Assembly: GCA_016872875.1 (NCBI GenBank)
Contig: VGYW01000101.1
Span: 1-21,184 of the forward strand
Reading direction: 5' to 3'
DNA length: 21,184 nt
Origin: Planctomycetota bacterium
GTDB lineage: Bacteria > Planctomycetota > PUPC01 > DSUN01
Of this stretch, positions 1,942 to 19,285 are shown in pieces. Both the position numbers and the translations under genes were made by a program. The number at the start of each line of letters is the position of its first letter. The stretch's first letter is position 1. Under the pieces are notes generated by a model, which saw only the letters and a list, made by a program, of their open reading frames with translations, did no database searches and had not been told where the DNA came from.

Positions 1942-3219
1942 TTGGACAGGCTCTTCCTGGCTCTGCTTCTGTGCGCCGCGAACGCCGCGTTGGGGGCCGA
2001 GTGGCCCCATTGGCGCGGCCCGAGCCGCGACGGGGTGGTGCCCGAGGCCTCGGGCTGGCCCAGCGGCTGGCCCCCCAGGAAGCTCTGGAGCGGCCGCGTC
2101 GGAATGGGCTGCTCCTCGCCCATCATCGTCGGCGGAAAGCTCTACGCGATGGGCTGGTGGGACGGGCAGGACACCCTCCACTGCCTCAACGCCCGCACGG
2201 GGGCCGAGCTCTGGCGGCAGTCCTACCGCGCCCCCCGCTACGGCCGCCACGCCACCGGCGATCAGGGGGAGTATGGCGGCCCGTCGTCCACCCCCGCCTT
2301 CGACGCCGCGACGGGGCTCCTCTACACGCTGAGCCTCGATGGCGGCCTGCGCTGTTGGGACGCCGCGAAGGACGGCAAGCCGGTCTGGGCGCTCAACCTC
2401 TACGACAGCTTCAAGGCGCCGCAGCGCCCGGACGTCGGCGGCGGGCGGCGCGACTTCGGCTATCCAACCTCCCCGCTTGTCCGCGGCGGCCTGCTCCTCG
2501 TCGAGGTCGGCGCGCCATCCGGCACCGTGATGGCCTTCGACAAGCGGACCGGCGAGCGGCGCTGGGCCTCGCAGTTCAGCGGCCCAGCCGGCCACACGGG
2601 CACGCCAGTAGAGATGAAGGTCGGCGAGGTCCCCTGCCTCGCCCTCCTCGCGCTTCAGCACCTGGTGGTGATGCGGCTCGATGCGGGCCACGAGGGCAAG
2701 ACCCTCGCCACCACCCCCTGGCACACCGAGTTCGCCTGCAACATCTCCACCCCCGCCGTCGCCGGCAGCCGCATCCTCATCACGTCGGAGTACAATCATT
2801 CGGCCTCCACGCTCTTCGAGGCCACGCCCGGCCGCCTCCGCGAGGTCTGGACCTCGAGGGTCCACGGCGTGTGCAGCAGCCCGGTCATTTTCCGCGACCG
2901 CATCTTTCTCATCAACCAGCCCATCCAGTGCATCGAGCTGGCGACGGGGCGGCTGAAGTGGCGGGGCGGCGACTTCACGAACGGCTCGTGCCTCGTCACC
3001 GCGGCCGACGGCAAGCTCATCGTCTTCGGCAGCCGCAAGCTCGCCCTCCTCGACGCCCTGGCAGACAAGTACCACGAGCACGCGCGCCTCGACCGCGTGG
3101 TGCCCGGCACCTGCTACCCGCACCTGGCGCTCGCCGACGGCGTGCTGTGCTGCAAGGACCGCGACGGGAACCTGGTGTGCTTCTCCGTGCGAGGGGCCGA
3201 CGCGAAAGGTAGGCATTGA
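1942..3219 (+). CDS. Secreted PQQ-like beta-propeller repeat protein
   Basis: A 425-residue protein with an N-terminal signal peptide (MDRLFLALLLCAANAALGA, cleavage probably after ALGA). The mature protein starts with EWPHWRGPSRDGV, a signature of the PQQ-binding-like propeller proteins abundant in Planctomycetota. Propeller blades recur as an aromatic residue, an acidic or asparagine residue, then a TGxxxW unit: LNARTGAELW, FDKRTGERRW, LATGRLKW. Such proteins are BamB-like periplasmic propellers; whether this one binds PQQ or has enzymatic activity cannot be told. The TTG start is supported by an AAGGA about nine bases upstream, the signal peptide and the promoter at 1857-1885. The stop overlaps the next gene's ATG (TGATG), implying coupled translation with the ferredoxin gene, although the functional link is unclear. 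Confidence 0.85.
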   Translation: MDRLFLALLLCAANAALGAEWPHWRGPSRDGVVPEASGWPSGWPPRKLWSGRVGMGCSSPIIVGGKLYAMGWWDGQDTLHCLNARTGAELWRQSYRAPRYGRHATGDQGEYGGPSSTPAFDAATGLLYTLSLDGGLRCWDAAKDGKPVWALNLYDSFKAPQRPDVGGGRRDFGYPTSPLVRGGLLLVEVGAPSGTVMAFDKRTGERRWASQFSGPAGHTGTPVEMKVGEVPCLALLALQHLVVMRLDAGHEGKTLATTPWHTEFACNISTPAVAGSRILITSEYNHSASTLFEATPGRLREVWTSRVHGVCSSPVIFRDRIFLINQPIQCIELATGRLKWRGGDFTNGSCLVTAADGKLIVFGSRKLALLDALADKYHEHARLDRVVPGTCYPHLALADGVLCCKDRDGNLVCFSVRGADAKGRH

Positions 3220-4130
3220 TGGCGGACACGCCGCGCGCTCTGCTCTGCGAATGCGCCTTCACCGATCTGGTGCCCGAACCAGTGAAGGCGGAAGCCGTCC
3301 AGCGCCTGCGCGATGCGGGCGTGGACTTGGAGACGGTGCCTGACCTTTGCGAGCTGGCGGCCCGCCGCGACCCCAGCCTCAAGGCCCTCGCCGAGAGCGG
3401 CGAGGCCCTCATCATCGCTTGTTACCCGCGCGCCGTCCGTTGGCTCTTCGCCTCCTCCGCCGCCCCCCTCCCCGATTCCGCCCGAATCCTCAACCTCCGG
3501 GCGCAGCCCCCCGAGGCCATCCCGCTCGAAGCAAGAGAGTCTCACGCAGCGGCAGAGGAGACAGCAGAGAAGAGGGAGCCCGGGGCTGAAATCGCAAATC
3601 GCAAATCGCAAATCGCAAATCCGAAATCTCCCTGGCTCCCCTGGTTCCCCGTCATTGACCGCTCCCGCTGCAACGGCTGCCAGCAGTGCCTGAACTTCTG
3701 CCTCTTCGGGGTCTACGCCCTGGGCGCGGACGGCCAGGTGGAGGTGAGGAACCCCGCGAACTGCAAGACGAATTGCCCGGCCTGCGCCCGCATCTGCCCC
3801 GAAGTGGCCATCATCTTCCCCAAGCACAAGACGAGTCCCATCAACGGCGCCGAGGTGACGCCCGAGCACCTTGCCGGCCGCGAGGTGCGGGTGGACCCCA
3901 GGAGCCTGGGGCAGGGCGACGTCTACGGCGCGCTCCGCCGCCGAAGCGAGCGCGCCAAGGCCGCCGCCGCCGAGCAGATCACGGAGGACCAGGCCGCCAA
4001 GCTCTGCCCCTGCATGATGGAAGAGCTACAGAAGGAGCTGGGCATCCCCCCCGAGGTCCTCAAGACCCTCCCCTTCGGCGACATCCAGGCGAAGCTGCGC
4101 GCAGCCCGCGAAGAGAAGAGGACCTCATGA
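3219..4130 (+). CDS. Ferredoxin-type protein with two 4Fe-4S motifs and a Cys-containing N-terminal domain
   Basis: A 303-residue protein. The N-terminal 100 residues carry scattered cysteines (10, 12, 44, 69) and I cannot name the domain. The middle has C151-x2-C154-x2-C157-x3-C161 and C182-x3-C186-x2-C189-x3-C193, a typical two-cluster ferredoxin layout suited to delivering electrons. The two parts are joined by a low-complexity linker (residues 103-138) containing an in-frame seven-base tandem repeat (3591-3628). The start is ATG 3219, overlapping the upstream TGA by one base; a TTG three bases earlier is in frame but less likely. Its place before a radical SAM gene suggests it supplies electrons to that enzyme or to the DUF116 protein. 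This is inferred from context. Confidence 0.82.
   Translation: MADTPRALLCECAFTDLVPEPVKAEAVQRLRDAGVDLETVPDLCELAARRDPSLKALAESGEALIIACYPRAVRWLFASSAAPLPDSARILNLRAQPPEAIPLEARESHAAAEETAEKREPGAEIANRKSQIANPKSPWLPWFPVIDRSRCNGCQQCLNFCLFGVYALGADGQVEVRNPANCKTNCPACARICPEVAIIFPKHKTSPINGAEVTPEHLAGREVRVDPRSLGQGDVYGALRRRSERAKAAAAEQITEDQAAKLCPCMMEELQKELGIPPEVLKTLPFGDIQAKLRAAREEKRTS
3591..3628. repeat. Seven-base tandem repeat (ATCGCAA) inside the ferredoxin gene
   Basis: About four units of ATCGCAA and one of ATCCGAA run in tandem and are read as a stretch ending IANRKSQIANPKSP. The unit is not a multiple of three, so gain or loss of one unit would shift the frame. The same type of repeat is in the DUF116-synthase gene at 7607-7639. 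It lies in a linker between domains. Confidence 0.85.
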
Positions 4131-4183
4131 GCCTGCAACCCCCACCGACGCTCGCGCATGCTCAGCGAGGGGAGGCAAGCCTT

Positions 4184-4299
4184 CCCCCTCTCCCTTGGGG
4201 AGAGGGCGGGGGTGAGGGTGCTTCGCCCCCCGTGGATCTCGGAAGGCACCCTCACCCGCCCGCCCTTGGCGGGCGACCTCTCCCCAAGGGAGAGGTGGG
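4184..4299. repeat. Nested inverted repeat between ferredoxin and radical SAM genes
   Basis: CCCTCTCCC-TTG-GGGAGAGGG type hairpin at 4186-4206, then GGGGTGAGGGTG at 4209-4220 pairing with CACCCTCACCC at 4247-4257, and a closing CCTCTCCCCAAGGGAGAGG at 4277-4295. A further small hairpin (CGCCC-TTGG-CGGGCG area, 4261-4276) lies inside. It fills most of the 183-bp gap and ends just before the radical SAM ribosome-binding site. An open frame extends through it from 4158 but this reads repeat, not protein. Confidence 0.85.
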
Positions 4300-4313
4300 A
4301 GCTGGAGAAGCCA

Positions 4314-6041
4314 ATGGCGAGTGACAAACGCCCCCTGCGCCCCGCAGTCGTCCTGGTGGCCGACAGGACCCTGAGCGCGCGCTACCGCGTGCTCTTCGAG
4401 GGGGTGTTCGCCACGATGCAGACGACCAAGGTGCCCGAATGGGCGATGCGCCACGTCGTGGCGCCGCCCGTGGCCACGGACAGCCAGGGGCGGGCAAAGG
4501 TGGCGCCCGTCGGCCTCCGCCGGGTGGAATCTGCGCTCCTCGGCCACACGCCACTGACCCGCGACGACGTGGTGGTGACCACCCCCGAGGCCCTGCCCCG
4601 GCTCCTCGGCCCCTGGGTGAAGGTCGTGGGCGTGAGCTCCAGCGACCCACTCGGCTACGGCATGAGCAACACCACGACCTCGGCCTTCTGGAGCGGCGAG
4701 CTTTACACCCGGCACTGGACCGCTCGCATGATGGCGCAGCTCCGCGAAGCGAAGGCGAGGCACGGCTTCCGCATCCTCGCCGGCGGCGCGGGAACCTGGC
4801 AGTACGTCCAGCACCCCGAAGAGGCCCAGGGTATTGATGTGCTCTTCGAGGGCTACTTCGAGAACGCCGGCCCCGGCCTGGTTCTCGACCTAGTCGAAGA
4901 CAGACTCCCAAGCACACACAGGCTGGAAGCCTGTGCCACCACCCCACAGGCTGGAAGCCTGTGCCACCGCCGGGAGATACATGTCCCCGGTGGCACAGGC
5001 ATCTTGCCTGTGACAGGGGTTCCTGGTGGCACAGGCATCTTGCCTGTGACAGGGGTTCCTGGTGGCACAGGCATCTTGCCTGTGACAGGGGTTCCAGGTG
5101 GCACAGGCATCTTGCCTGTGTTCAGCGAGGGGGAGCCGTGCGTGGAGCGCATCCGCCCGATCGCGGGCGCGTCGCTCCTGGGGGTGGTCGAGCTCTCGCG
5201 CGGCTGCGGCAATGGCTGCGGCTTCTGCACGATGGCCTATCAGCGCATGGGCCACCTGCCGCCCCAGACCATTGTTGCAGACCTCGCCACAAATGTGGAA
5301 AATGGCGTCCGAGCCGTCGTGAGCGGCAGCGAGGACTTCCTCCGCTACGGCGCGACGGGCCACAAGGTGGACTTCGAGCGGCTACGCGGGCTCCTGGCCG
5401 AGATGCGCCGCGTGCGAGGCCTGGCCTTCATGCAGATTGACCACGCAAACGTCTCAAGCGTCCTTCAGTTCGACGATGCGCAGCTCGGCGAAATCCGCCG
5501 CCTCCTCACCTGGGAGGCCCACAGCGACTTCCTCTGGCTCAACCTCGGGGTCGAGAGCGCCAACGGCCACCTCGTGAAGGCCAACAGCCCCGGCAAGCTC
5601 GGCCACATCGCGCCCGACGACTGGGAGGACGCCGTGGCCGAAGCGGGCGACCGCCTCGCCCGCAACGGCTACTTCCCCGTCTTCAGCCTCATCCTGGGCC
5701 TGCCGGGCGAGACGCCCGACGACGTGACCCGCACCCTCCGCCTCGTCAAGCGCCTCGCCGCAAAGCGTTGCGTCACCTTCCCCGTCTTCCACGAGCCGGT
5801 GCGCGATGGGCGCGGCCAGCCATTCAACCTGGCCGCAATGACCCCCGAGCACCTCGACCTCTACACGGCGTGCTACGAGATCAACTTCAAGGCCGTGCCC
5901 CAGCTCTACTGGGACAACCAGCGCGCGGGCGGCGTCCCCTGGCTCAAGCGGGCCTTCATGCAACTCCTCGGCCGCGCCGAGACGCGCGCCTGGCGCCGCA
6001 ACTTCGCCCGCGTGCACAAGCAGATGTCCAGAGGAGGATGA
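4314..6041 (+). CDS. Radical SAM protein with B12-binding-like N-terminal domain
   Basis: A 575-residue protein. Residues 10-195 resemble the Rossmann domain of B12-binding radical SAM enzymes: [27 protein letters not shown] and the [11 protein letters not shown] to VLFEGYFEN stretch. The slot of the usual DxHxxG is D111-P-L-G-Y-G116, with Leu replacing the cobalt-binding His, so cobalamin may bind without a His ligand or not at all. Residues 290-575 form the radical SAM barrel with RGC298GNGC302GFC305 (CxxxCxxC) and GLPGETPDD. Residues about 197-270 are encoded by an inserted repeat block between the domains. ATG 4314 is preceded by GGAG at six bases; an upstream in-frame ATG (4158) would translate an intergenic repeat. 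The stop lies in the next repeat. Substrate unknown; neighbours point to isoprenoid chemistry. Confidence 0.87.
4917..5120. repeat. Six CACAGGC-family hairpins inserted in frame in the radical SAM gene
   Basis: Two copies in minus orientation (4917-4935 and 4945-4963, arms CACAGGCT/AGCCTGTG, loop GGA) are followed by four plus-orientation copies (4994-5012, 5030-5048, 5066-5084, 5102-5120; arms CACAGGCA/TGCCTGTG, loop TCT). The four plus copies form an exact 36-bp tandem period, read as the 12-residue unit [12 protein letters not shown]. There are no variable spacers, so it is not a CRISPR array. The block joins the two enzyme domains without a stop or frameshift. Confidence 0.95.
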
Positions 6042-6216
6042 ATGGATGGGTGGATGAATGGATGATCCAGGCAGCGGATGAATGGATGTATGGATGTATG
6101 GATGAATGGATGTATGGATGAATGAGAGAGCGAATCTCTCCGACATCCATCCAGCCATCCACTCATCCATCCAGAGCTTTCTGACCCATCCACCCATCCA
6201 CTCATCCATTCATCCT
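6034..6216. repeat. ATGGATGA-type repeats folded as a large inverted repeat
   Basis: The left arm is a run of GGATGAATGGATG-like units from 6034; the right arm is made of CATCCATCCACTC-like units to 6216; a small GAGAGA/TCTCTC stem sits at the centre near 6125. It fills the 194-bp junction between the radical SAM and DUF116-synthase genes. The radical SAM stop codon (6039-6041) lies inside the left arm. Confidence 0.9.
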
Positions 6217-6235
6217 CTCCCAAGGAGCGGCTAGG

Positions 6236-7930
6236 TTGGCTGAGCAGCAGACCATCACGCAGACAGCCGGCCCGGCGCTGCATCGGGCGCGCCCGCCGCT
6301 CGACGGCGTGCCGCCGAGCAAGGCGGAGCGCGAGCGGCTCCTGGGCGCCGCGCGCCGCTACGTGGCCGCCGAACGCCTCGTGCCGCCCCTGCCGCTGGCC
6401 GAGCTGAAGGCCCACGCCGACCGCGTGCTGGCCCTGGCGGGCAGCGACGCCCGCTTCCGCGACTTCGCCACCGTCCTCATCGGCAACGCCGCCTGGAGCG
6501 AGGGCCTGGCGGGCATCCCCTTCGACCGCCGCCTCCTCCTCCTGCCCCAGTGCCTGCGCGACAAGGCGCGCTGCAAGGCCGAGATTGACGAGTTCGGCCT
6601 CCTGTGCCACCACTGCGGCGCCTGCCCTATCCACGAGCTTCAGGCCGAGGCCGAGCGCCTCGGCTACGTCGTCCTCGTCGCCGAGGGCACCACCATCGTC
6701 ACCTCGCTCATCCAGGAGGGCAAGATCGAGGCCGTCGTCGGCGTCGGATGCCTCGCCGGCCTCGAGCGGGTCTTCCCCTACACCGAGGCGGCGGCCGTCC
6801 CTGGCGTCGCCGTGCCGCTCCTCAACGACGGCTGCGCGGAGACGAGCGTGGACCTCGACTGGGTGTGGGACACGATGCAGCTCACGCGGGCGGACCGCAC
6901 TCGGCGGCTTGACCTCGATGCGTTGCGGGCGGAGGTAGAGGGCTGGTTCACCCTCGACGCCCTTGAGGGCACGATGGGGCCTGCCGCCACTTCGACCGAG
7001 CGGCTCGCGCGTGAATGGCTCGCGCGCTCGGGCAAGCGCTGGAGGCCCTTCCTCGCCCTCTGCACCTTTCAGGCCTGCCGACCTGACCCCGATGAGCCGC
7101 TGCCGGCCGACTTCCGCAAGATCGCCGTCGCCGTCGAGTGCTTCCACAAGGCGTCGCTCATCCACGACGACATCGAGGACGACGACCCGCAACGCTACGG
7201 CGAGGACACGCTCCACAAGGCCCACGGCGTGCCCATCGCGCTGAACGCCGGCGACCTGTTGCTGGGCGAGGGCTACCGCCTCATCGCCGAGTGCGCGGCC
7301 CCCGACGCCGCGAAGGCGGCCATGCTCCGCGCCGCCGCCGGCGGCCACCGCAGCCTCTGCCTCGGCCAGGGCGAGGAGCTCGCCTGGGCACGCACCCCCA
7401 GCCCGCTCGCCACCGAGCAGGTGCTCGCCATCTTCCGCCAGAAGACCGCCCCCGCCTTCGAGGTCGCGCTCCAGCTCGGCGCACTCTACGCCGGCGTGAG
7501 CGACGGCGTCTGGCAGGTCCTCCGCCAGTGCAGCGACGCCCTCGGCATCGCCTACCAGATTCGCGACGACATGGACGACCTTTGCGGCGAAGCCGCTGAG
7601 GACGGGAATCCGAAATCCGAAATCCGAAATCCGAAATCGCCGAGCCCCGCCTTCAGCGGGCCGTCCATCCTCCTCGCCATCGCCCACGAGCGCGCGTCGG
7701 GGCCGGCGCGGGACCTCCTCGATGCCCTGTGGCGCATCCCGTCGCAGGTCAGCCGGCGGCTGCCCGAGTTGCGGGCTGTGCTCAGGTCGCTCGGCGTCGA
7801 GGACGCCGCACGCAAGATGCTCGAGTCCTATCGCGACGAGGCGGTCCGCTCCCTCCGCCCCCTCGACAACCCCAGCCTCAAGGGCCTCCTCCGCCGCGTG
7901 ATATGCAAGATTTTCAACGAGCTGTCCTGA
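6236..7930 (+). CDS. DUF116 domain fused to an isoprenyl diphosphate synthase
   Basis: A 564-residue two-domain protein. Residues about 95-215 match DUF116 in style: LLLLPQCLRD, C113, C124HHC127GAC130, VAEGTTIV, VVGVGC172L and LLNDGC200AETSVD; the clustered cysteines suggest an iron-sulfur site. Residues about 250-564 are a trans-isoprenyl diphosphate synthase: SGKRWRP (diphosphate binding), first Asp-rich motif D311DIED315, and second D444DMDD448 in YQIRDDMDD. Small residues (Ala, Ser) at positions 5 and 4 before the first motif usually go with longer products (C20 or more), a weak prediction. The usual Arg-Arg after the first motif is reduced to QRYG. TTG start 6236 has AAGGAG eight bases upstream. 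Residues 458-470 come from a seven-base repeat. The next gene starts one base after the stop. Confidence 0.88.
   Translation: MAEQQTITQTAGPALHRARPPLDGVPPSKAERERLLGAARRYVAAERLVPPLPLAELKAHADRVLALAGSDARFRDFATVLIGNAAWSEGLAGIPFDRRLLLLPQCLRDKARCKAEIDEFGLLCHHCGACPIHELQAEAERLGYVVLVAEGTTIVTSLIQEGKIEAVVGVGCLAGLERVFPYTEAAAVPGVAVPLLNDGCAETSVDLDWVWDTMQLTRADRTRRLDLDALRAEVEGWFTLDALEGTMGPAATSTERLAREWLARSGKRWRPFLALCTFQACRPDPDEPLPADFRKIAVAVECFHKASLIHDDIEDDDPQRYGEDTLHKAHGVPIALNAGDLLLGEGYRLIAECAAPDAAKAAMLRAAAGGHRSLCLGQGEELAWARTPSPLATEQVLAIFRQKTAPAFEVALQLGALYAGVSDGVWQVLRQCSDALGIAYQIRDDMDDLCGEAAEDGNPKSEIRNPKSPSPAFSGPSILLAIAHERASGPARDLLDALWRIPSQVSRRLPELRAVLRSLGVEDAARKMLESYRDEAVRSLRPLDNPSLKGLLRRVICKIFNELS
7607..7639. 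repeat. Seven-base tandem repeat (ATCCGAA) inside the DUF116-synthase gene
   Basis: Four units of ATCCGAA plus a partial one, read in frame as NPKSEIRNPKSP just after the second Asp-rich motif of the synthase, where other family members have a variable loop. Related in sequence and phase behaviour to the repeat at 3591-3628. Confidence 0.87.
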
Positions 7931-7931
7931 T

Positions 7932-8876
7932 ATGACGCTTCGCCAGGAGATGCTCGCGGCGGCCGGGAGGGCACCAAGGCTGCTCGGCGATTCGCGCCGC
8001 GCCGTAGCCGCCTTCCTCCGAGCGCAGCAGAACGCCGACGGCGGCTTCCGAGGCCGCGGCGAGGCGAGCGACCTCTACTACACCGTCTTCGCCATCGAGG
8101 GCCTCATCGCCCTCGGGCAGGGAAAAGACACCAGGAGTCTTTTGCCGTCCACGGCCCTTCGGGTGCTGAGCACAAAAGACTCCTGGTGTCTTTTCCCCAT
8201 CCGCCGCTACCTCGCCTCGTTCGGCGATGGCGCGGGCATCGACTTCGTCCACCTCGCCTGCCTTGCCCGCTGCTGGGCCGACGCCGGTGGCCTGCCGCCT
8301 GAGACCGGCGCGGCGTTGGCGGGGCGGATCGAGGGCTATCGCTCCGCCGACGGCGGCTACAGCCCCAACCCCGGCGCCGAGCACGGCACGGCCTACGGCT
8401 GCTTCCTCGCCCTCGGAGCGCTCGAAGACCTGGGGATGCAGGAGATTGACCTCGGGGCGATTCGCCGCTGCCTCTTCGCCCTTCAGCGCGACGACGGCGG
8501 CTATGCCAACGAGCGCGCCCTGAAGGCCAGCACGACGCCGGCCACCGCCGCCGCCGTGAGCGTGGCCAAGCACCTGACCGGGACGGCGGACAAGGCGGCA
8601 GTGGGCTTCCTCCTCGCCCGCGCCGCGGCGGAGGGCGGCTTCTTCGCGACCGCCTCCGCGCCCTTCCCAGACCTCCTCTCCACCGCCACCGCCCTCCACG
8701 CCCTCGCCGGCCTCACGCGGCACTCGCGGGACTTCGCCCAGGCCTGCGTCCAGTTCGTCGAGGGCCTCCGCGCCGATGGCGGCGGCTACCGCGGCGCGTG
8801 GCTCGACGAGGAGCCCGACGCCGAGTACACCTTCTACGCCCTCCTCGCCCTCGGACACCTCAGTCCACTCCTCTGA
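7932..8876 (+). CDS. Alpha-alpha toroid protein of the prenyltransferase/squalene-cyclase repeat family
   Basis: A 314-residue protein built from toroid repeats with the family's GGF/GGY turns: QQNADGGF, YRSADGGY, LQRDDGGYA, and LRADGGGY near the C-terminus. No DxDD acid motif of class II terpene cyclases is present. The zinc sites of protein prenyltransferase beta subunits also appear lost: the D-x-C site corresponds to P246-F-region residues PDLLS, and the usual His is Tyr in DAEYTFY (296-302). It is therefore neither a standard cyclase nor a standard protein prenyltransferase; binding or converting a product of the upstream synthase is an inference. Residues 64-89 are encoded by a pair of inverted A4GAC repeats. 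ATG 7932 follows the preceding stop by one base, implying translational coupling. Confidence 0.82.
   Translation: MTLRQEMLAAAGRAPRLLGDSRRAVAAFLRAQQNADGGFRGRGEASDLYYTVFAIEGLIALGQGKDTRSLLPSTALRVLSTKDSWCLFPIRRYLASFGDGAGIDFVHLACLARCWADAGGLPPETGAALAGRIEGYRSADGGYSPNPGAEHGTAYGCFLALGALEDLGMQEIDLGAIRRCLFALQRDDGGYANERALKASTTPATAAAVSVAKHLTGTADKAAVGFLLARAAAEGGFFATASAPFPDLLSTATALHALAGLTRHSRDFAQACVQFVEGLRADGGGYRGAWLDEEPDAEYTFYALLALGHLSPLL
8123..8194. repeat. REPIN-like pair of A4GAC repeats inside the toroid gene
   Basis: One 21-bp element at 8123-8143 (AAAAGACACC ... GGAGTCTTTT) and its exact reverse complement at 8174-8194 (AAAAGACTCC ... GGTGTCTTTT), 30 bases apart. Two short palindromes in inverted orientation are the layout of REPIN elements. 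The block is read through in frame between toroid helices. Confidence 0.92.
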
Positions 8877-9413: not shown

Positions 9414-9526
9414 TCATGGCTTGGGCGGCGGGGCGTCGAGCTTCCAGCGCTCGCGCTCGATGAGGGGGGTCTGGAAGGCGGCCTGGATGCGGCCGGCCTT
9501 CTCCAGGTGGTCGAGGCAGGCGGGCC
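9414..9526 (-). pseudogene. Duplicated 3' end of the QueG-like gene, distal copy
   Basis: The minus strand reads CLDHLEKAGRIQAAF and IERERWKLDAPPPKP before a stop at 9414. This is the same C-terminal segment as in the gene at 9930-10823, with a longer tail that may be the ancestral ending. It is joined upstream to the 22-bp repeat, so no start or upstream domain exists. It is not expected to be expressed on its own. Confidence 0.75.
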
Positions 9527-9921
9527 AAAAAGACAGCGGGTATCTTTTCTGCGCGCCCCCAACGTCTACAGCCGTAAACCTGTTATAGATTGGTGTTTGC
9601 GTCTTCGTAGGCTGGACTGGATAGAAAAAGACAGCGGGTATCTTTTTCGCGGGCTCAATCGAGCTTCCAGCGTTCGCGCTCGATGAGGGGGGTCTTGAAG
9701 GCGGCCTGGATGCGGCCCGTCTTCTCCAGGTGGTCGAGGCAGGCGCGGGCCAAAAAGACAGCGGGTATCTTTTCTGCGAAGGTGGTCGAGGCAGGCGGGC
9801 CAAAAAGACAGCGGGTATCTTTTCTGCGCGCCCCCAACGTCTACAGCCGTAAACCTGTTATAGATTGGTGTTTGCGTCTTCGTAGGCTGGACTGGATAGA
9901 AAAAGACAGCGGGTATCTTTT
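9527..9921. repeat. Tandem 275-bp duplication carrying five 22-bp repeats
   Basis: A 22-bp repeat of form AAAAAGACAGCGGG followed by TATCTTTT occurs at about 9527, 9625, 9752, 9802 and 9900. The copies at 9527 and 9802, and those at 9625 and 9900, are each 275 bp apart. The stretch between (including CAACGTCTACAGCCGTAAAC) is duplicated almost exactly. Its A4GA...TCTTTT ends resemble the A4GAC palindromes elsewhere in the window. Degenerate versions lie at about 9366-9408. Confidence 0.9.
9655..9751 (-). pseudogene. Duplicated 3' end of the QueG-like gene, middle copy
   Basis: The minus strand reads CLDHLEKTGRIQAAF and IERERWKLD then stop at 9655, nearly identical to the end of the intact gene. 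The 22-bp repeat lies on both sides. Confidence 0.77.
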
Positions 9922-9929
9922 TCGCGGGC

Positions 9930-10823
9930 TCAATCGAGCTTCCAGCGCTCGCGCTTGATGAGGGGGGCCTGGAAGGCGGCCTGGATGCGGCCCGTCTTCT
10001 CCAGGTGGTCGAGGCAGGCGCGGAGGCAGCCGCGGCCGACGCAGATGGCGAGGTGCCGGAAGCGGTCGGTGAGGAAGCGGCTGTAGCTGGGCCGCTCGCC
10101 CTCCTTCTCGGAGCCGGTCCAGAAGGGGGAGAAGCGCGGGTCGTCGCCGCAATGGACTCGCCCGCAGGCATTGGGGTCGAAGGGGGCGTGGGCGAACTCG
10201 CGGCCCTCGATGGTGAACTTCACCTCGCGCTTCCCCCCGATGGCGCAGGCTTCGCAGGCCTTGACGCAACTCAGGCAGCCGTCGCACACCTTGCCCTGGA
10301 AGAGGGGCGTCGGCTCGAGCTCCGCGTCGGTAAGGACCGCGAAGACACGCTGCCTGGGGCCGAACTGTGGGGTGAGGAGGAGCTTGGAGTGGCCGAGCTC
10401 GCCGAGGCCCGCCGCGACCGCGGCCACGCGGAGCGAGAGCATGCCGTCGGGGCCGGCCGGCTGGTCGGCGCGGATGCGGCGGCCAGTGTGCGGGTGGAAG
10501 GGGTTGTGGACGGGGACGCTTGTGAAGCCGCGCTCCTCGAGGGCGAGCACGATGCGGCGGAGGATGGTGGTGGAGAGCACCTCGTTCAGATACCAGTAGG
10601 AGTCGCAGTTGTAGGCTTGCCAGTAGGTGCCTTCCTCGACGGCCTTGAGCGCGCCGCGCAGTTGGCGGGTGGCGATGGCGATGAGGGTGCGGGTCTGGGG
10701 GAAAATGGTGCGGGGATGGAGCTCGGGCGGGGCGGCATCGAAGCGCGAGACGGGCGCGAAGCCCACGAGGTCGGCCCCTGCTTCCCGCGCCATGCAGCGC
10801 ACTTGTTCGGCGAGATCAGCCAT
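9930..10823 (-). CDS. QueG/reductive-dehalogenase-like 4Fe-4S protein
   Basis: A 297-residue iron-sulfur protein. The N-terminus (AREAGADLVGFAPVSRF) and the central YWYLNE region resemble the QueG (epoxyqueuosine reductase) and reductive-dehalogenase superfamily. Iron-sulfur ligands include CDGCLSCVKAC (CxxCxxCxxxC), a C..C pair in DPNACGRVHC and CVGRGCLRAC near the C-terminus. Orthologous QueG function is not established: the second cluster is not the usual QueG pattern and the protein lacks the C-terminal HEAT-like part. ATG 10823 is chosen from the conserved N-terminus; the Shine-Dalgarno is poor. It follows the NIPSNAP gene on the same strand across a palindromic array. The stop at 9930 directly precedes a repeat, and the last about 28 codons are duplicated twice downstream. 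Confidence 0.83.
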   Translation of the reverse strand: MADLAEQVRCMAREAGADLVGFAPVSRFDAAPPELHPRTIFPQTRTLIAIATRQLRGALKAVEEGTYWQAYNCDSYWYLNEVLSTTILRRIVLALEERGFTSVPVHNPFHPHTGRRIRADQPAGPDGMLSLRVAAVAAGLGELGHSKLLLTPQFGPRQRVFAVLTDAELEPTPLFQGKVCDGCLSCVKACEACAIGGKREVKFTIEGREFAHAPFDPNACGRVHCGDDPRFSPFWTGSEKEGERPSYSRFLTDRFRHLAICVGRGCLRACLDHLEKTGRIQAAFQAPLIKRERWKLD

Positions 10824-13009: not shown

Positions 13010-15706
13010 TCAGTTCGGCGAACAGGTCTCCTCGGCGGACCAGGTGGGGTCGAGGCGCACGACGCGGCGGTTGGCGGAGTCGGCGACGTAGATGTGCTTG
13101 AACGATGCCTTGGCCGCAACGGGGTAAGCAAGGGGGATGGCGGGCTTGGGGGCGACGCTCTGAGGCCCCTGGCTGTCGTGGTTGCCGTACTCGCCGAAGG
13201 TGAGGATCGGGTTGCCCGCGTTGTCCACGACCGCGACGGTGCAGGTGAGGGCGTTTGGGAGGTAGAGGCGGCCGTAGTCGTCAACGTCGAAGCGCGGGGT
13301 CTGGCAGGCGCACTGGTTGCTGAAGGGGGCGAGGAGGGGGTAGGCCCGCAGGCCGCCCTCGATGTGGATAGTCCAGGGGGCGGAATACCAGTCGAGCCGC
13401 TGCCCCGAGGCCATCTTGATGCCGTCCTCCAGCTTGTCGGGCACGGTGGAGAGGATGGGCCAGTATTTGTCCACCTTGTATTGCTGGCCGGGCTTGAGGT
13501 TGTCGGGGACCATTCCGCCGCCGGAGGGCTTGAACTTGATGACGCAGCCGAGGGACTCGGCGAAGTGGCGGTAGCGTTTGGCGGCGTCGGCGAGGCCAGC
13601 GGGGAGCGCGTAGTCGCGCGGCAGGATGCGCACGCCGGCGTAGAGGTTCCCCTGCTGGTCAATCTCAACTCCGCCGCTCTGGTCCTGGAGCCAGCCGATG
13701 AGAGCGCCGTCGAAGCCGGCCTTGACGCAGTGGGGGGAGATTTTGCCCGAGGCGAACTCGGCGCGGAGGCGCGGGGTGCGCCCGGCCGAGCCGTCGGTCT
13801 TGACCTCGAAGATGCCGTTGACGCGGAAGGTGAACATGCCGTTGTAGTAGAGGGTGCCGTCGGGGGTCACGCAGGAGCCCTGGTTGCCGAAGTATCCGCC
13901 GCCCATCTTGCCGTAGCGGTCGGAGAACTGCTTCTGGCCGCCGGGCAGCGGGGCGTCGGTGAGGTCGCGGTTCAGGCGGCGCCAGGGGCCGGAGTAGCCG
14001 CCGCCCGCGTAGTCGTGCCCTGAGAGATAGACCATGCCGTCGCGTCGGATGCAGAACTCGGAGCCGATGAGCGGCTTGGGGCGGCCCTCCTTGTCGAGCG
14101 GGCCGGCATACTCGCCGGTCAGCCCGTTGTAGCGCACGATGTACGCCCAGCCGTTGTGCACGTAGGCCAGGTCCGCCTCGGGGTCAACGTCCAGGCGGCA
14201 GGCGAAGCCTGCGGCGAGCTTGCCGCGGTCGGCAAGGTCCTCGACGGCTTCCAGCTTGTCGCCCTTGTCCGCGATGCGCAGCAGGCTGTTCTCGCGGGGG
14301 CAGCCGCTGAGCCAGAGCTGGGGGGTATCACCAGTGAAGTCGGCCGCGAGGAAGGGGTCGAGGGCCACCCCCCGCTCGGCGAAGTCGAGCCGAGCCACGA
14401 CCTTGGCGTCGGGCGCAGTCCCGCTCAGTTTCACGAGAGACCTCGCGCGCTCGCCCTTCTCTGTGTTCCGCCGCGTCAGGACGTAGAGCGCGCCGGTCTT
14501 GTCGTCGGGGACGACCATGTGCGGGTGCGTGATTGGGATGGAGGTGACGACGGTGCCGTTGGACGAGAGGACCCACACCTTCCCGCCCGCGGCGTCGCAG
14601 ACGAGGACGCTGCCGTCCTTCCCCACGGCCACGCCGTGGAGGGGCTGTGTGTCGGCCAGGACGTTCCAGCCTCGCTGGGGCGGCGAGGCGTCGTCGGGCA
14701 GGGGAATCTCGGCGAAGGGGGCGGCCCTCCCGCCGAGGGCCAGCTTGTAGACCCGGTTGCTGGGCCAGGCGGGGTGCTGCTTCTCGCCCTTCTTGGGGCT
14801 TCCCGCGTAGCCCGCGAAGAAGCAGGTCTTGCCGTCGGGGGCGACGGCGCCCATGACCGGGCCGACTGCGGCGTAGCCGGCCAGCTTCGTCGCGGCGTCC
14901 CAGAGCGGCTCGGCAAACGCCTCGCCCACTGCGCCCCCATCGCTCTTGCGGATGCGGTAGAGCGAGGCGAACGACTCGGCCAGGAGAATCACCGCGTCAT
15001 CCGTGGGATGAACGGCCATCAGCTTGATGGCGAGGTCGTTCACCCCTTCGGGCTTGGGCGCGACGGGGTAAAAGGTTGGCCAGAGGCTATGGTAGTTCAT
15101 CGGGGCCTTGGCGTCGGAATCCGGGACGGCTACGGAGCCGAAGGGCTCGCGGCTCTTGGCGTCGAGGGTGGGCGGGTAGGGCATCAGCTCGCGGAGGTAC
15201 TTCCCCTCGCGGTCGTAGACGCGCAGGAAGTAGAGCGCGCCGTCGCGGGTCTTCTTGGCCATGAAGTGCAGGTCGCCGTTCTTGCGGTCAACGGCCAGGC
15301 CGCGGCAGACGGTTTCGTTGAGGTTGTGCGGGCTGTCGGCGAGGATTCGCCCGAACCGCACGCCCATGCCGAGGCGGACGCGCGCCTTGAAGGGACCGCC
15401 CTCGGCCTTCTTCCCCCAGTCCCCCTGGCCGTCCCACTCGATGGCCTGCGTCAGCCCGGGCCGGAGCGGCTCGGGCGGCGGGTTCTTCGCGCCGAGCGCT
15501 CCCGCGGCGAGGTGGCGGACCACTCTCCCCTGGGCGTCGAGGATGGCCACCTCCACATCGGCGGGGGCAGAAACCGCGAAGGCGATCCGCGCCTTCTCCC
15601 CGGCCAGGGCCATCGTTGGCTTGGCGGAGAAGGACACCTCGCCGGCAAGCGTCGGCGAGAGAGCCGCCACGAGAGCGCTCAGAAAGGCCGTTGTCCTTAC
15701 CTTCAC
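13010..15706 (-). CDS. Large secreted beta-propeller protein with FlgD-like N-terminal domain (paralogue 1)
   Basis: An 898-residue secreted protein. A signal peptide (KVRTTAFLSALVAALSPTLAG) is followed by a FlgD/Ig-like domain (ADVEVAILDAQGRVVRHLAAG, then AIEWDGQGDWGK) and a long NHL/SMP-30-like propeller region: GLAVDRKNGDLHFMA, GVAVGKDGSVLVCDAAGGKV and the C-terminal YVADSANRRVVRLDPTW. It ends AEETCSPN, almost the same ending as the paralogue at 16596-19226. Function is unknown; this architecture is typical of extracellular or periplasmic Planctomycetota proteins. The start is GTG 15706, with AAGGAG nine bases upstream and the signal peptide; the frame upstream to 15850 reads a repeat array. 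It is last of three co-directional genes. Confidence 0.82.
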   Translation of the reverse strand: MKVRTTAFLSALVAALSPTLAGEVSFSAKPTMALAGEKARIAFAVSAPADVEVAILDAQGRVVRHLAAGALGAKNPPPEPLRPGLTQAIEWDGQGDWGKKAEGGPFKARVRLGMGVRFGRILADSPHNLNETVCRGLAVDRKNGDLHFMAKKTRDGALYFLRVYDREGKYLRELMPYPPTLDAKSREPFGSVAVPDSDAKAPMNYHSLWPTFYPVAPKPEGVNDLAIKLMAVHPTDDAVILLAESFASLYRIRKSDGGAVGEAFAEPLWDAATKLAGYAAVGPVMGAVAPDGKTCFFAGYAGSPKKGEKQHPAWPSNRVYKLALGGRAAPFAEIPLPDDASPPQRGWNVLADTQPLHGVAVGKDGSVLVCDAAGGKVWVLSSNGTVVTSIPITHPHMVVPDDKTGALYVLTRRNTEKGERARSLVKLSGTAPDAKVVARLDFAERGVALDPFLAADFTGDTPQLWLSGCPRENSLLRIADKGDKLEAVEDLADRGKLAAGFACRLDVDPEADLAYVHNGWAYIVRYNGLTGEYAGPLDKEGRPKPLIGSEFCIRRDGMVYLSGHDYAGGGYSGPWRRLNRDLTDAPLPGGQKQFSDRYGKMGGGYFGNQGSCVTPDGTLYYNGMFTFRVNGIFEVKTDGSAGRTPRLRAEFASGKISPHCVKAGFDGALIGWLQDQSGGVEIDQQGNLYAGVRILPRDYALPAGLADAAKRYRHFAESLGCVIKFKPSGGGMVPDNLKPGQQYKVDKYWPILSTVPDKLEDGIKMASGQRLDWYSAPWTIHIEGGLRAYPLLAPFSNQCACQTPRFDVDDYGRLYLPNALTCTVAVVDNAGNPILTFGEYGNHDSQGPQSVAPKPAIPLAYPVAAKASFKHIYVADSANRRVVRLDPTWSAEETCSPN

Positions 15707-15718
15707 CTGGGGCTCCTT

Positions 15719-15780
15719 TCGAGTGAATCGAGCGAATCGAGCGAATCGAATCATTCGATTATTTCGATTCTCTCGATTCG
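15719..15780. repeat. GAATCGA palindromic array before the propeller paralogue 1 gene
   Basis: Units of GAATCGAGC on the left side face complementary CGATT units on the right around AATCATTCGATT. It lies between the four-helix-bundle gene and the propeller gene, and supplies the last codons and TAA stop (15759-15761) of the four-helix-bundle gene. It matches the array at 16531 in layout and orientation. Confidence 0.9.
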
Positions 15781-16517
15781 GCCCACCCAATCTCCCTCGC
15801 GCCTTTGCACTCCGGGTAGCCCGTGCAACCCCAGAACTCCTTCCCCGCACTCCTTCCGCTTCTGGCCCTGCGCCGCGTCATCGGCTTGCCGCACTGCGGG
15901 CAGGCAGGCGCGGCTTCCTGCTTCGCCCGGGCCTCGGCCCGGATGCTCGTGAGCTTCTCCCGGAACCCGCCCTCTTGCTCGAAGGTCTCGCCCTGTTTCT
16001 CCATCTGGTGGTTGAGCATGTTGATCACTCGCGCGATGAGAATCAGCAGGCAGTTCGCCATCGCCTCGTCGTTCCCGGACTCCAGCCACTTCGCAAACTT
16101 CTTCTTCTTCTGCGCCAGGATGTGCGCGCAGGCGTCGCGAACGACGTCCTCGCCATAGTTCGGCTTGTCGAGCCGGATGGCATACACTTCGCGGGCCTCA
16201 GGACTCTCCTTGGCCCACGGCACCCGTTCCTGATTCAGCAGCCAGTTCAGGAAGTCGCCCGCCAATTCCGCCAGGCTCGAGCGCGCCACGTCGGTGAGCT
16301 TCATCTCGGTCTCCCTGGACGTCGCCCGCCGCGCCGAGCCTTCCGCGATGTTGGCGCACCCGGACCGCGCCGCCTGCGTCATCTGGTCGTATTGGCGTCC
16401 GTTGGGATCGTTCGTACGGTTCAGAAACCGCCGGCAGAACTGCTGGGTGCCAAGCTGCACGATGTTCGCCAGCACCCATGAATCCAGCCGGAAATATCCG
16501 CATGTGCCGCCAAACAT
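15759..16517 (-). CDS. Four-helix-bundle suffix-domain protein with C-terminal topoisomerase-type zinc ribbon
   Basis: A 252-residue protein. The N-terminal half matches the four-helix-bundle family (related to 23S rRNA intervening-sequence proteins): FGGTCGYFRLDSWVLANI, then AARSGCANIAEGSARR and MKLTDVARSSLAELAGDFL. Residues to about 200 carry the suffix region (EQEGGFREKLTSIR). The C-terminus has CPQCGKPM and FWGCTGYPECKG, a four-Cys zinc ribbon like the tail of DNA topoisomerase I, suggesting nucleic-acid binding. ATG 16517 has GAGGAG eight bases upstream; the frame further up reads a repeat array. The final ESRESK and stop are encoded by the array at 15719. The role is unknown. Arrays on both sides suggest that the gene may move as a cassette. 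Confidence 0.85.
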   Translation of the reverse strand: MFGGTCGYFRLDSWVLANIVQLGTQQFCRRFLNRTNDPNGRQYDQMTQAARSGCANIAEGSARRATSRETEMKLTDVARSSLAELAGDFLNWLLNQERVPWAKESPEAREVYAIRLDKPNYGEDVVRDACAHILAQKKKKFAKWLESGNDEAMANCLLILIARVINMLNHQMEKQGETFEQEGGFREKLTSIRAEARAKQEAAPACPQCGKPMTRRRARSGRSAGKEFWGCTGYPECKGAREIGWAESRESK

Positions 16518-16595: not shown

Positions 16596-19226
16596 TCAGT
16601 TGACCGTGCAGGTCTCCTCTGCCGCGTGAGTGGGCACAACCCGCACCCCTCGGCGGTTGTAGGTGTCGCAAACGTAGATGGCGTCGCGGCTGACCCCCGC
16701 GCCCGTGGGCCAGCCGAGCGGGATGTCGGGCACCGACACCGTGGAGTGCAAGGAGTCGAAGTTGCCATACTTCCCGAACTCCAGGATTTGGTTGCCCGCG
16801 TTGTCCACGATCCGCACCGAGTTGGTGATGGCGTTGGGCAGGTAGAGGCGGCCGTAGCGGTCGAGGTCGAAGCGGGGCGTGCGGCAGGTGCAGCACAGGT
16901 TGCTGCCCCAGCTCGAATGGCTAAACGGGCCATACCCTGGGTAGGCGGCCAGGGCGCCCTCGACGAATGCCTCGGCGAACACATTGGTGTCGCGATAGCC
17001 GGAGCGCGCTTCTATCCCCTTGGCCCCTGGCGGGCGCAAGGCGTCGAGCTTCTCGCCTTTGGCTGGCGCATGCACCGCGCCGCCGTCGGGGCCGAGCTTG
17101 AAGACGCTGCCCGTCGTGGCCAGATAAGGCAAGTCCTTCGCCCACTTCGCAGGCACGGGCGCGTCCTTGGGCCAGTTCCAGAGGCCGAGGTAGATGTTGC
17201 CCGCGAGGTCAACGCGGATGCCGCCGTTGGCGGGGTTCACTGGGCCGATGGTGGCGCGGCCGCGGCTCTTGCCCTCCTTGTCCTTCACCTCGAGGTGTTG
17301 CCCGTCCTGGAACTTGCCGTCGGGGCCGTAGCAGACGACCCAATAGGTCGCCCAGTCGTACATGAAGGAGATGTAGCTGCGACCGTCGGGTCCGACGCCG
17401 AGGCCGCGCTCGGCGTAGCCCGGCCCCTCGCGGCTGTAGATGTGCTTGCTCAGGACGTGGGTGCCCGTGCCCGCGAAGGGGGCGGGCGCCAGCTCGCGCG
17501 TGTAGCGCGCGAATGGGCCGGAGTAGTCCTGGAACTCCGGCGCACCCGTCCCCTGCCGCACGTAGAGCAGCCCGTCGTAACCAACAGCGAGGTCTTGCGA
17601 CCAGAACTGCTTGCCGTCCTTCGCGAGCATGGTGCCTTTGCCGGTCTTGCCGTCGTAGCGCCACATGCCCACCGTGCCGTCGCTGCCATAGACCTCGTCG
17701 CGGTCGTAGTCAACCGCCAGCCGGTGCCAGCCCCATTGGGAGTCTGGCCTGGGCTGGTAGGCGGTCTGGACTGGCTCGAACGCCTTCCCCTTGTCTTCGA
17801 GGGCGAGGAGGCTGTACTTTCCGGCCTTGGTGAGGCTGGTACGAAGCCAGCAGAGGGCGCGGCCGGCGGGGAAGCTGAAGGCCATCGCCACGAGGTCGGC
17901 GGTCTTGGGTATCTCGTGCTCCGCCGCGGGCTTGGCGTCCGCCCCAAGGGTGTCGAATCGCATCAGCCTGAGGTCCACGCTCTTGCGGGGGACGATGCGC
18001 TTTTCGAGGACGTAGAGCGCGCCCGTCCGCGGGTGGACGGCGAGCTGGTCGGGCCATCTGACGGGCACGTGGCCGACCTCTTTGCCGTCTGCGTCGAAGA
18101 CCGCAACGCGCCCCCGCTCGCGGTCGGCGACGTAGACGCGGCCCTTGGCATCCACGGCCACGCCGTGGACTGGCCCCTTTGGCGCGCCGGCCAGGCTGTA
18201 GGCCGACCAGTCGCCGCCGTCCTGAGTCCAGTTCCCGCCCAGGCCGTCCTTGTGCTCGACCTTGATAGCCGCGAATGGCTCGGCAGGGCCGTCGCCATCG
18301 AGCTTGAGCCGATAGACGACCCCCGGCGGGTAGCGCGGGTCGTAAGGGTGGCCGTACTGACTCTTCGCCGAGTAGGGGCCGCTGAGGTAGAGGGTCCTGC
18401 CATCGGGCGAGAGGGCGGCGTAGGCGTGGCCGCACCGCGGCGGGGTGCCCGCAGGCCAGAGGGAGCGCGCCCTGAACTTCTCGCCGGGCACGGCGCCGCG
18501 GGCGTCGAGCCGGAACAGGCTTCTGCCATCGGTGAGCAGGACGCCGTGCTCCTTCGTTGCCGCGACGAGGTGCAGTGTGACCGAGGGCGTCATGCCGCTG
18601 CCGTTGCCGCCCATGAGGAGATAGAACTGGACGTTTGTGCTGCGGTAGTTGCGGGGCCGGAAGCACTTGCTCTCTTCATCCCAGGCCGCTACATCCTTCA
18701 TCGCTCCCGGTGCCAGGTCGGCCGGGAAAGGCATGAGGGTGCGCAGGTACTTGCCTTCCGGCGAGAACGCCCTCAGGGTCATGCAGGTCAGCGAGTCCTC
18801 CTCGCGGTAGCCCATGACGTAGAGGTTGCCCGCCTCGTCGCTGGCCATCGAGGCCACGAGGCCGAAGGTGTAGGGGTCGTCGCCGCCGATGAAACGGCTG
18901 AAGCGCACGCCCATTCCCGCGCGGACCCGCACACGGAACGGCCCGCCCTGGGCCGGCCTCCCGAAGTCGTCGAGGAGGTCCCACTCGATTGCCTGCGCGA
19001 GGCCCGGCTTGAGGGGCGGTGGTGGCGCCTTCTCGCCACCCAGCACCCCCGCGGCGAGGTGCCGCACCACCTTGCCATCGGCGCTCAGGATAGCCACCTC
19101 CACGTCCGTCGGCGCGGGAACGGCGAAGCGGACCCTCACCTTGTTGCCTTCGCGGACAGCCTCCGGCTTGGCCGCGAACGCGGCCGGCCCCAGAGCCGTC
19201 AGCAGCAGGATGGCCCTAATCCTCAT
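16596..19226 (-). CDS. Large secreted beta-propeller protein with FlgD-like N-terminal domain (paralogue 2)
   Basis: An 876-residue paralogue of the gene at 13010-15706. Signal peptide MRIRAILLLTALGPAAFA; FlgD-like domain with TDVEVAILSADGKVVRHLAAG and AIEWDLLDDFGRPAQGG (both near-identical to paralogue 1); then propeller blades such as SMASDEAGNLYVMG, GVAVDAKGRVYVADRERGRV and a C-terminal YVCDTYNRRGVRVVPTHAAEETCTVN-type end. Function is unknown. ATG 19226 is preceded by AGGAG four to five bases upstream. It is the first gene of the minus-strand set and has a candidate promoter at 19286-19313. A very long antisense open frame covers it but has no start signal, family motif or codon pattern and is a shadow. 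Confidence 0.84.
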   Translation of the reverse strand: MRIRAILLLTALGPAAFAAKPEAVREGNKVRVRFAVPAPTDVEVAILSADGKVVRHLAAGVLGGEKAPPPPLKPGLAQAIEWDLLDDFGRPAQGGPFRVRVRAGMGVRFSRFIGGDDPYTFGLVASMASDEAGNLYVMGYREEDSLTCMTLRAFSPEGKYLRTLMPFPADLAPGAMKDVAAWDEESKCFRPRNYRSTNVQFYLLMGGNGSGMTPSVTLHLVAATKEHGVLLTDGRSLFRLDARGAVPGEKFRARSLWPAGTPPRCGHAYAALSPDGRTLYLSGPYSAKSQYGHPYDPRYPPGVVYRLKLDGDGPAEPFAAIKVEHKDGLGGNWTQDGGDWSAYSLAGAPKGPVHGVAVDAKGRVYVADRERGRVAVFDADGKEVGHVPVRWPDQLAVHPRTGALYVLEKRIVPRKSVDLRLMRFDTLGADAKPAAEHEIPKTADLVAMAFSFPAGRALCWLRTSLTKAGKYSLLALEDKGKAFEPVQTAYQPRPDSQWGWHRLAVDYDRDEVYGSDGTVGMWRYDGKTGKGTMLAKDGKQFWSQDLAVGYDGLLYVRQGTGAPEFQDYSGPFARYTRELAPAPFAGTGTHVLSKHIYSREGPGYAERGLGVGPDGRSYISFMYDWATYWVVCYGPDGKFQDGQHLEVKDKEGKSRGRATIGPVNPANGGIRVDLAGNIYLGLWNWPKDAPVPAKWAKDLPYLATTGSVFKLGPDGGAVHAPAKGEKLDALRPPGAKGIEARSGYRDTNVFAEAFVEGALAAYPGYGPFSHSSWGSNLCCTCRTPRFDLDRYGRLYLPNAITNSVRIVDNAGNQILEFGKYGNFDSLHSTVSVPDIPLGWPTGAGVSRDAIYVCDTYNRRGVRVVPTHAAEETCTVN

Positions 19227-19285
19227 GAGGCTCCTCACTTGCACAGGACGCCGTCTTCTGGTTAGCATGGTGGCCTGTAGGTCTC

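Follow-up and report, generated by a model that had tools for sequence, protein, structure and literature searches.

A 21,184-nt stretch of a Planctomycetota bacterium genome (GenBank assembly GCA_016872875.1, contig VGYW01000101.1), referred to here as the window, carries five genes arranged head-to-tail on the + strand, encoding a BamB-like protein, a ferredoxin (FD), a radical S-adenosylmethionine (SAM) enzyme (RS1), a fusion of DUF116 with a polyprenyl diphosphate synthase (PPS) and an α-α toroid (TOR). In a preliminary description of the window, the last four had been read as co-directional members of a redox-linked isoprenoid operon. Each of the four was matched by Pfam to the family named there, and searches across public genomes strongly support the operon.

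Protein families of the cluster

FD (3219..4130, +) combines an N-terminal domain with a dicluster ferredoxin. The two-cluster ferredoxin described earlier was recovered as a Fer4_10 match (27.7 bits; cut-off, 25.5), and its eight ferredoxin cysteines were invariant in 18 of 18 sequences; FD is predicted to be a low-potential electron donor. A small separate gene (cluster c11) in loci L110, L116 and L117 looked by eye like the FD N-terminal domain, so FD may be a two-domain protein with separable parts.

RS1 (4314..6041, +) consists of an N-terminal domain and a radical SAM core. A match to Radical_SAM (PF04055; 40.4 bits, cut-off 29.5) and a CX3CX2C motif, whose three cluster cysteines were invariant in 20 of 20 relatives, place it in the radical SAM superfamily as first described. 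The B12-binding-like domain also ascribed to it was not borne out: the N-terminal domain gave no B12-binding match in Pfam at an E-value of 0.1, and the nearest B12/radical SAM model in NCBIfam, TIGR04013, scored 53.4 bits, far below its cut-off of 251.

PPS (6236..7930, +) matched both DUF116 (PF01976; 117.7 bits, gathering score 25) and polyprenyl_synt (PF00348; 138.2 bits against 27) within one protein, confirming the fusion. Its Asp-rich motifs are those of a trans-polyprenyl synthase, with DDxxD in 71 of 71 sequences and, in the second motif, D445 in 71 and D448 in 65. Ala-Ser occupied positions −5/−4 of the first motif in 71 of 76 and in 19 of 19 sequences, the remaining five falling outside the search pattern; the best match in the PDB, a geranylgeranyl diphosphate synthetase (1wy0), has Tyr-Ser at this site. 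The product chain is probably longer than C20. In the Cys-rich, flavodoxin-like DUF116 domain, cysteines 106, 113, 124, 127, 130, 172 and 200 were each kept in 70 or 71 of 71 sequences, a pattern that fits Fe-S cluster binding. At least two PF00348 matches were present in 39 of 40 cluster genomes, and PPS is therefore an extra, dedicated synthase.

TOR (7932..8876, +) had been described as a toroid of the prenyltransferase fold that could bind or cyclise a chain. The fold was upheld by a Prenyltrans match (46.3 bits, cut-off 26.5) and by its resemblance to the β subunit of RabGGTase, whose single α-α toroid is that of protein prenyltransferase β subunits. The zinc ligands of these subunits are Asp, Cys and His residues; among 30 TOR sequences no Cys or His was invariant or nearly so, and no DXDD motif was found. 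TOR therefore more likely binds or presents the chain than cyclises it, and the cyclising role passes to a probable cyclase encoded outside the window, a separate family here termed C2.

Co-location and co-inheritance

Loci were fetched from public genomes by RS1 alone, and the best 80 of 102 relatives were kept and scanned with profiles. The families could have proved not to be co-located, yet PPS was found in 78 of the 80 loci, FD in 67, TOR in 63 and C2 in 61. All members found shared one strand in every locus, most often in the order FD-RS1-PPS-TOR-C2 (36/80) or FD-RS1-C2-PPS-TOR (10/80). Median profile-to-profile gaps were 2 to 80 bp for five of six adjacencies, and −22 bp, an overlap, for PPS-TOR. 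Where FD was missed (13 loci), less than 500 bp of contig lay upstream in nine. The contig ended within 3 bp in 8 of the 17 loci missing TOR, and within about 630 bp in 10 of the 19 missing C2. The other misses of FD, TOR and C2 are local absences. Record titles assign the loci to Planctomycetota, Verrucomicrobiota, Omnitrophota, Acidobacteria and Armatimonadota.

The same families are inherited together. Among 199 Planctomycetota genomes, C2 was detected in 46, a fusion-size DUF116 frame in 46 and TOR in 47; of the 48 genomes with any component, 42 hold a radical SAM enzyme, C2, fusion-size DUF116 and TOR, and the other six lack one each. C2 and the DUF116 frame occur together in 44 of the 48 genomes having either. 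Pairwise Fisher tests gave p values of 1e-39 to 1e-43, which are overstated because the genomes are related. Across 194 Verrucomicrobiota genomes, C2 and fusion-size DUF116 were found in an identical set of 31 and were both absent from the other 163; among 20 C2 regions from 19 of these genomes, PPS lay nearby in seven, FD in six and RS2, a second radical SAM family, in five. The operon is not accidental, and the association is more than chance.

The term fusion-size DUF116 denotes no more than the length of the open frame at the match, 480 aa or longer in Planctomycetota and 500 aa or longer in Verrucomicrobiota; profile scans recovered the synthase half in all 19 Planctomycetota regions examined and in 7 of the 20 Verrucomicrobiota C2 regions. 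Thresholds were chosen after wide gaps had been seen in the scores (3e-137 to 5e-76 for RS2; 1e-155 to 2e-36 for C2). Below them lay 12 more genomes with weaker RS2 relatives only (1e-60 to 1e-76) and nine with weaker C2 matches only, probably canonical cyclases. For genomes with many candidates, the best few (6 to 12) were scored.

Two apparently interchangeable radical SAM families

RS2 occupies the RS1 slot in some loci. It lacks the RS1 N-terminal domain, gave no match to the RS1 profile and weakly resembles SPASM-type enzymes. RS2 was present in 40 of the 199 Planctomycetota genomes (E < 1e-130) and RS1 in seven, for a union of 47; the two never co-occurred. On a tree of 96 PPS proteins, 72 labelled RS1 and 24 labelled RS2, the radical SAM label needs seven changes, at least five of them forced by well-supported branches, and a first tree of 98 proteins gave the same outcome for the RS1 label. 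Both were quick trees with midpoint rooting; in the 96-protein tree, ten loci without a local radical SAM gene were labelled RS2 from an RS2 elsewhere in the genome, and L122 and L131, from untested genomes, were left out. Their interchange on the PPS tree suggests that the two families fulfil one function in a single pathway. The absence of the RS1 N-terminal domain from RS2 makes a B12-specific step improbable as their common chemistry.

The C2 cyclase family

C2 is a diverged two-domain squalene-cyclase-like protein with a median length of about 620 residues; N and C domains of SQHop_cyclase were found in the two representatives scanned. The motif DXDD (DXDDT/S) is present in 76 of 77 sequences and, together with the two domains, identifies a class II terpene cyclase. 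With the squalene-hopene cyclase model TIGR01507 (cut-off 431.1), the two representatives gave 115.7 and 142.1 bits. Matches in the PDB were to squalene-hopene cyclase (148.5 bits), then lanosterol synthase (81.8), with ent-copalyl diphosphate synthase at 48.8 bits.

C2 was present in all 18 cluster genomes searched by profile, at times far from the cluster: in Candidatus Uabimicrobium amorphum SRT547 (L003), an organism in culture, it lies about 0.44 Mb away, and in the closest relative of the window (PPS 82% identical) it is on another contig, followed by a PQQ_2 gene (L120). Presumably it is likewise encoded elsewhere in the window's own genome. C2, rather than TOR, is the probable cyclising enzyme. 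In an account of a Phycisphaerae isolate (PMC7783415), a squalene-hopene cyclase gene is ascribed to possible hopanoids.

Squalene/phytoene synthase (PF00494), expected in a hopanoid pathway, was found in 15 of 40 cluster genomes and not in the other 25. Strong matches to a canonical cyclase (>320 bits) occurred in 12 of the 40, all within the 15 having PF00494. Most of the 40 were assembled from metagenomes, so that genes may be missing from them.

Proposed pathway and alternatives

All parts, C2 included, almost certainly belong to one pathway, which is widely conserved in bacteria and apparently undescribed. We lean towards the view that the cluster is the front half of a dedicated squalene-independent route to a cyclic terpenoid, in which a radical step is followed by cyclisation by C2; taken alone, the placing of the radical or reductive step before cyclisation is evenly poised. 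The synthase half of PPS would make a trans-polyprenyl diphosphate, probably longer than C20. FD, the DUF116 domain and RS1 or RS2 would carry out a low-potential reductive or radical step on the allylic diphosphate end or close to it, from which a diphosphate-free or coupled chain would most likely result. TOR would bind and present this chain, and C2, through its DXDD motif, would protonate the far end and close the rings. Of this, the gene content and order, the co-inheritance, the DXDD and DDxxD motifs, the presence of the cluster in genomes with no detected squalene/phytoene synthase and the exchange of radical SAM families are observed directly; substrate length, the radical step, the sequence of reactions and the product are inferred.

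Several observations weigh against this proposal. C2 was not found in the window by profile scan, and in nine RS1 loci it is not linked despite more than 1 kb of room. FD is truly absent locally from 4 of the 80 loci, including the closest relative (L001), and 13 of the 20 Verrucomicrobiota C2 regions have no PPS, FD or RS2 alongside, some being short contigs. No close solved fold was found for DUF116. PF00494 is neither required nor avoided, being present in 34 of the 48 Planctomycetota pathway genomes and 86 of the 151 others, which rules out a squalene-type substrate only for genomes lacking PF00494; many of the pathway genomes were assembled from metagenomes and may have gaps. Sequence does not reveal whether the radical step or cyclisation comes first, and substrate, product and activity are predictions.

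The main rival, unlikely on balance but to be taken seriously, places cyclisation of the diphosphate first: C2 would be a diphosphate-retaining, copalyl-synthase-like class II cyclase that takes the polyprenyl diphosphate as its direct substrate, and the cyclised product would later be modified, reduced or dephosphorylated by the radical SAM enzyme, DUF116 and ferredoxin. Some DXDD cyclases do retain the diphosphate, C2 has a PDB match to ent-copalyl diphosphate synthase (48.8 bits), and C2 precedes PPS in the FD-RS1-C2-PPS-TOR order of 10 of 80 loci. Against this, C2 is closest to squalene-hopene cyclase (148.5 bits) and then to lanosterol synthase (81.8 bits), neither of which is known to bind a diphosphate, and the fusion of the Cys-rich DUF116 domain to the synthase suggests a redox step directly after chain synthesis.

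Alternatively, TOR could act as a prenyltransferase, transferring the polyprenyl chain to an acceptor (a protein, a peptide or a quinone-like molecule) that the radical SAM enzyme matures. We regard this as very improbable: the 30 toroids have no invariant Cys or His and hence no sign of a zinc site, no α subunit and no precursor peptide family stood out in the listed conserved neighbours of at least 90 aa, and the DXDD cyclase would be left unexplained. Least probable of all is a cluster tailoring ordinary squalene-derived hopanoids in the manner of HpnH, for which a squalene-hopene-cyclase-like enzyme beside a radical SAM enzyme, a weak HpnH match of the RS2 in L101 (42.7 bits, cut-off 225) and the frequency of PF00494 in RS2-type genomes might speak, since 25 of the 40 cluster genomes gave no PF00494 match and no strong canonical cyclase match (>320 bits) either, the cluster has its own prenyl synthase, and the two C2 representatives, at 116 and 142 bits, stay well under the hopene cyclase cut-off (431).

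Under the favoured route, in which the radical step precedes cyclisation by C2, a bolder version can be formulated that we consider a long shot: the Fe-S/radical SAM system would make a regular polyprenyl diphosphate cyclisable and the DXDD enzyme would then form a polycyclic polyprenoid membrane lipid, possibly by the postulated tricyclohexaprenol-type route, spread over Planctomycetota, Verrucomicrobiota, Armatimonadota, Omnitrophota and Acidobacteria. PMC10319793 cites prokaryotic tricyclohexaprenol as a candidate origin of fossil tricyclic terpanes; a tie between that compound and the present pathway is speculation. Should the product prove to be a cyclised regular polyprenoid, the question of which organisms gave rise to the tricyclic terpane biomarkers of petroleum would become directly testable. 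More generally, near-perfect co-inheritance in 48 of 199 sampled Planctomycetota genomes (about one in four) and 31 of 194 sampled Verrucomicrobiota genomes (one in six) implies a common, uncharacterised terpenoid. The cluster also offers a genetic handle on the Cys-rich DUF116, on interchangeable radical SAM families and on a cyclase family in genomes without detected squalene synthase.

Flanking genes, junctions and repeats

Redox genes adjoin the cluster in other genomes. Just upstream of the cluster or of FD in several Phycisphaerae-type loci (L014, L017, L020 and L033; one representative of each gene scanned) lie genes for a NuoEF-like fusion, a NuoG/GltD-like protein and a NapH-like protein. 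Of 19 loci in RS2-bearing genomes, 11 (L102, L103, L107, L109, L110, L112, L113 and L116-L119) encode a GcvH-like protein near FD, several of them with an adjoining CobW-type GTPase gene; the one protein scanned matched GCV_H at 72.8 bits, and a lysine aligned in 11 of 11. The GcvH-like protein is a possible lipoyl carrier in electron supply, and both sets of neighbours would fit a need for low-potential electrons. In the closest relative, an 885-aa open reading frame (ORF) at the expected FD position (L001:7241-9898) looks by eye like an acyltransferase-carrier protein-AMP ligase fusion.

In the window, the gene upstream of FD encodes a PQQ_2/BamB-like β-propeller (1942..3219, +; PQQ_2, 82 bits), and of the 55 loci in which FD is clustered, 26 have a PQQ_2-cluster gene on the same strand no more than 300 bp upstream of it. 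FD has two candidate start codons, TTG at 3216 and ATG at 3219, the ATG lying within a TGATG that is shared with the BamB-like stop. TOR starts one base past the PPS stop. The tight junctions noted in the preliminary description thus hold, as does its observation that repeats fill the others. The FD-RS1 filler (4158..4313, +) is repeat-like, with inverted CTCTCCC copies, and can be read as an N-terminal extension of RS1, whose ORF is open from 4158; the alignment of relatives begins at about MASDK at 4314. The RS1-PPS filler (6036..6219, +) consists of tandem repeats of an 8-bp unit.

Within RS1, ahead of the radical SAM core and between the two domains, lies an in-frame 36-bp repeat of 3.7 copies (4989..5120, +), at which one of 20 aligned relatives has a shorter insert. 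In-frame repeats were in fact seen in all four genes (FD, 3589-3628; RS1, 4989-5120; PPS, 7607-7638; TOR, 8125-8192), with 7-bp, 36-bp and palindromic units; that in TOR overlaps residues 66-80, the sole stretch of the structural model with a predicted local distance difference test score (pLDDT) below 50. Further downstream, a 244-nt unit recurs at a spacing of 275 nt with 98% identity between copies (9505-10023), and no Pfam hit above cut-off came from the ORFs that were tested over this region. Two long NHL-repeat proteins, encoded on the − strand at 13010-15850 and 16596-19268, have a 138-nt stretch in common (78% identical) and are perhaps partly paralogous.

Comparison with known systems

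A fusion of the same type as PPS, Psta_0175 of Pirellula staleyi, is mentioned in one sentence of a 2015 article (PMC5898192), which proposes an electron-transfer role for DUF116; unlike the present cluster, the fusion is not linked in that sentence to a ferredoxin, radical SAM enzyme, toroid or cyclase. TOR shares its fold with RabGGTase and the other protein prenyltransferase β subunits, and differs from them in lacking an invariant zinc-ligand Cys or His and in having no α subunit noticed among its neighbours.

The hopanoid pathway resembles the proposed route in being bacterial and in using a two-domain DXDD class II cyclase on a long isoprenoid substrate, and a radical SAM enzyme takes part in hopanoid tailoring. 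It differs in that PF00494 was not found in many cluster genomes, C2 scores far below the hopene cyclase cut-off, and the cluster has its own DUF116-fused prenyl synthase, with ferredoxin and a radical SAM enzyme in its core. In the C35 sesquarterpene pathway of Bacillus (tetraprenyl-β-curcumene cyclase), a cyclase of the squalene-hopene type is likewise supplied by a long regular polyprenyl diphosphate rather than by squalene. There the diphosphate is removed by a non-redox enzyme, in whose place the present system has ferredoxin, DUF116 and radical SAM.

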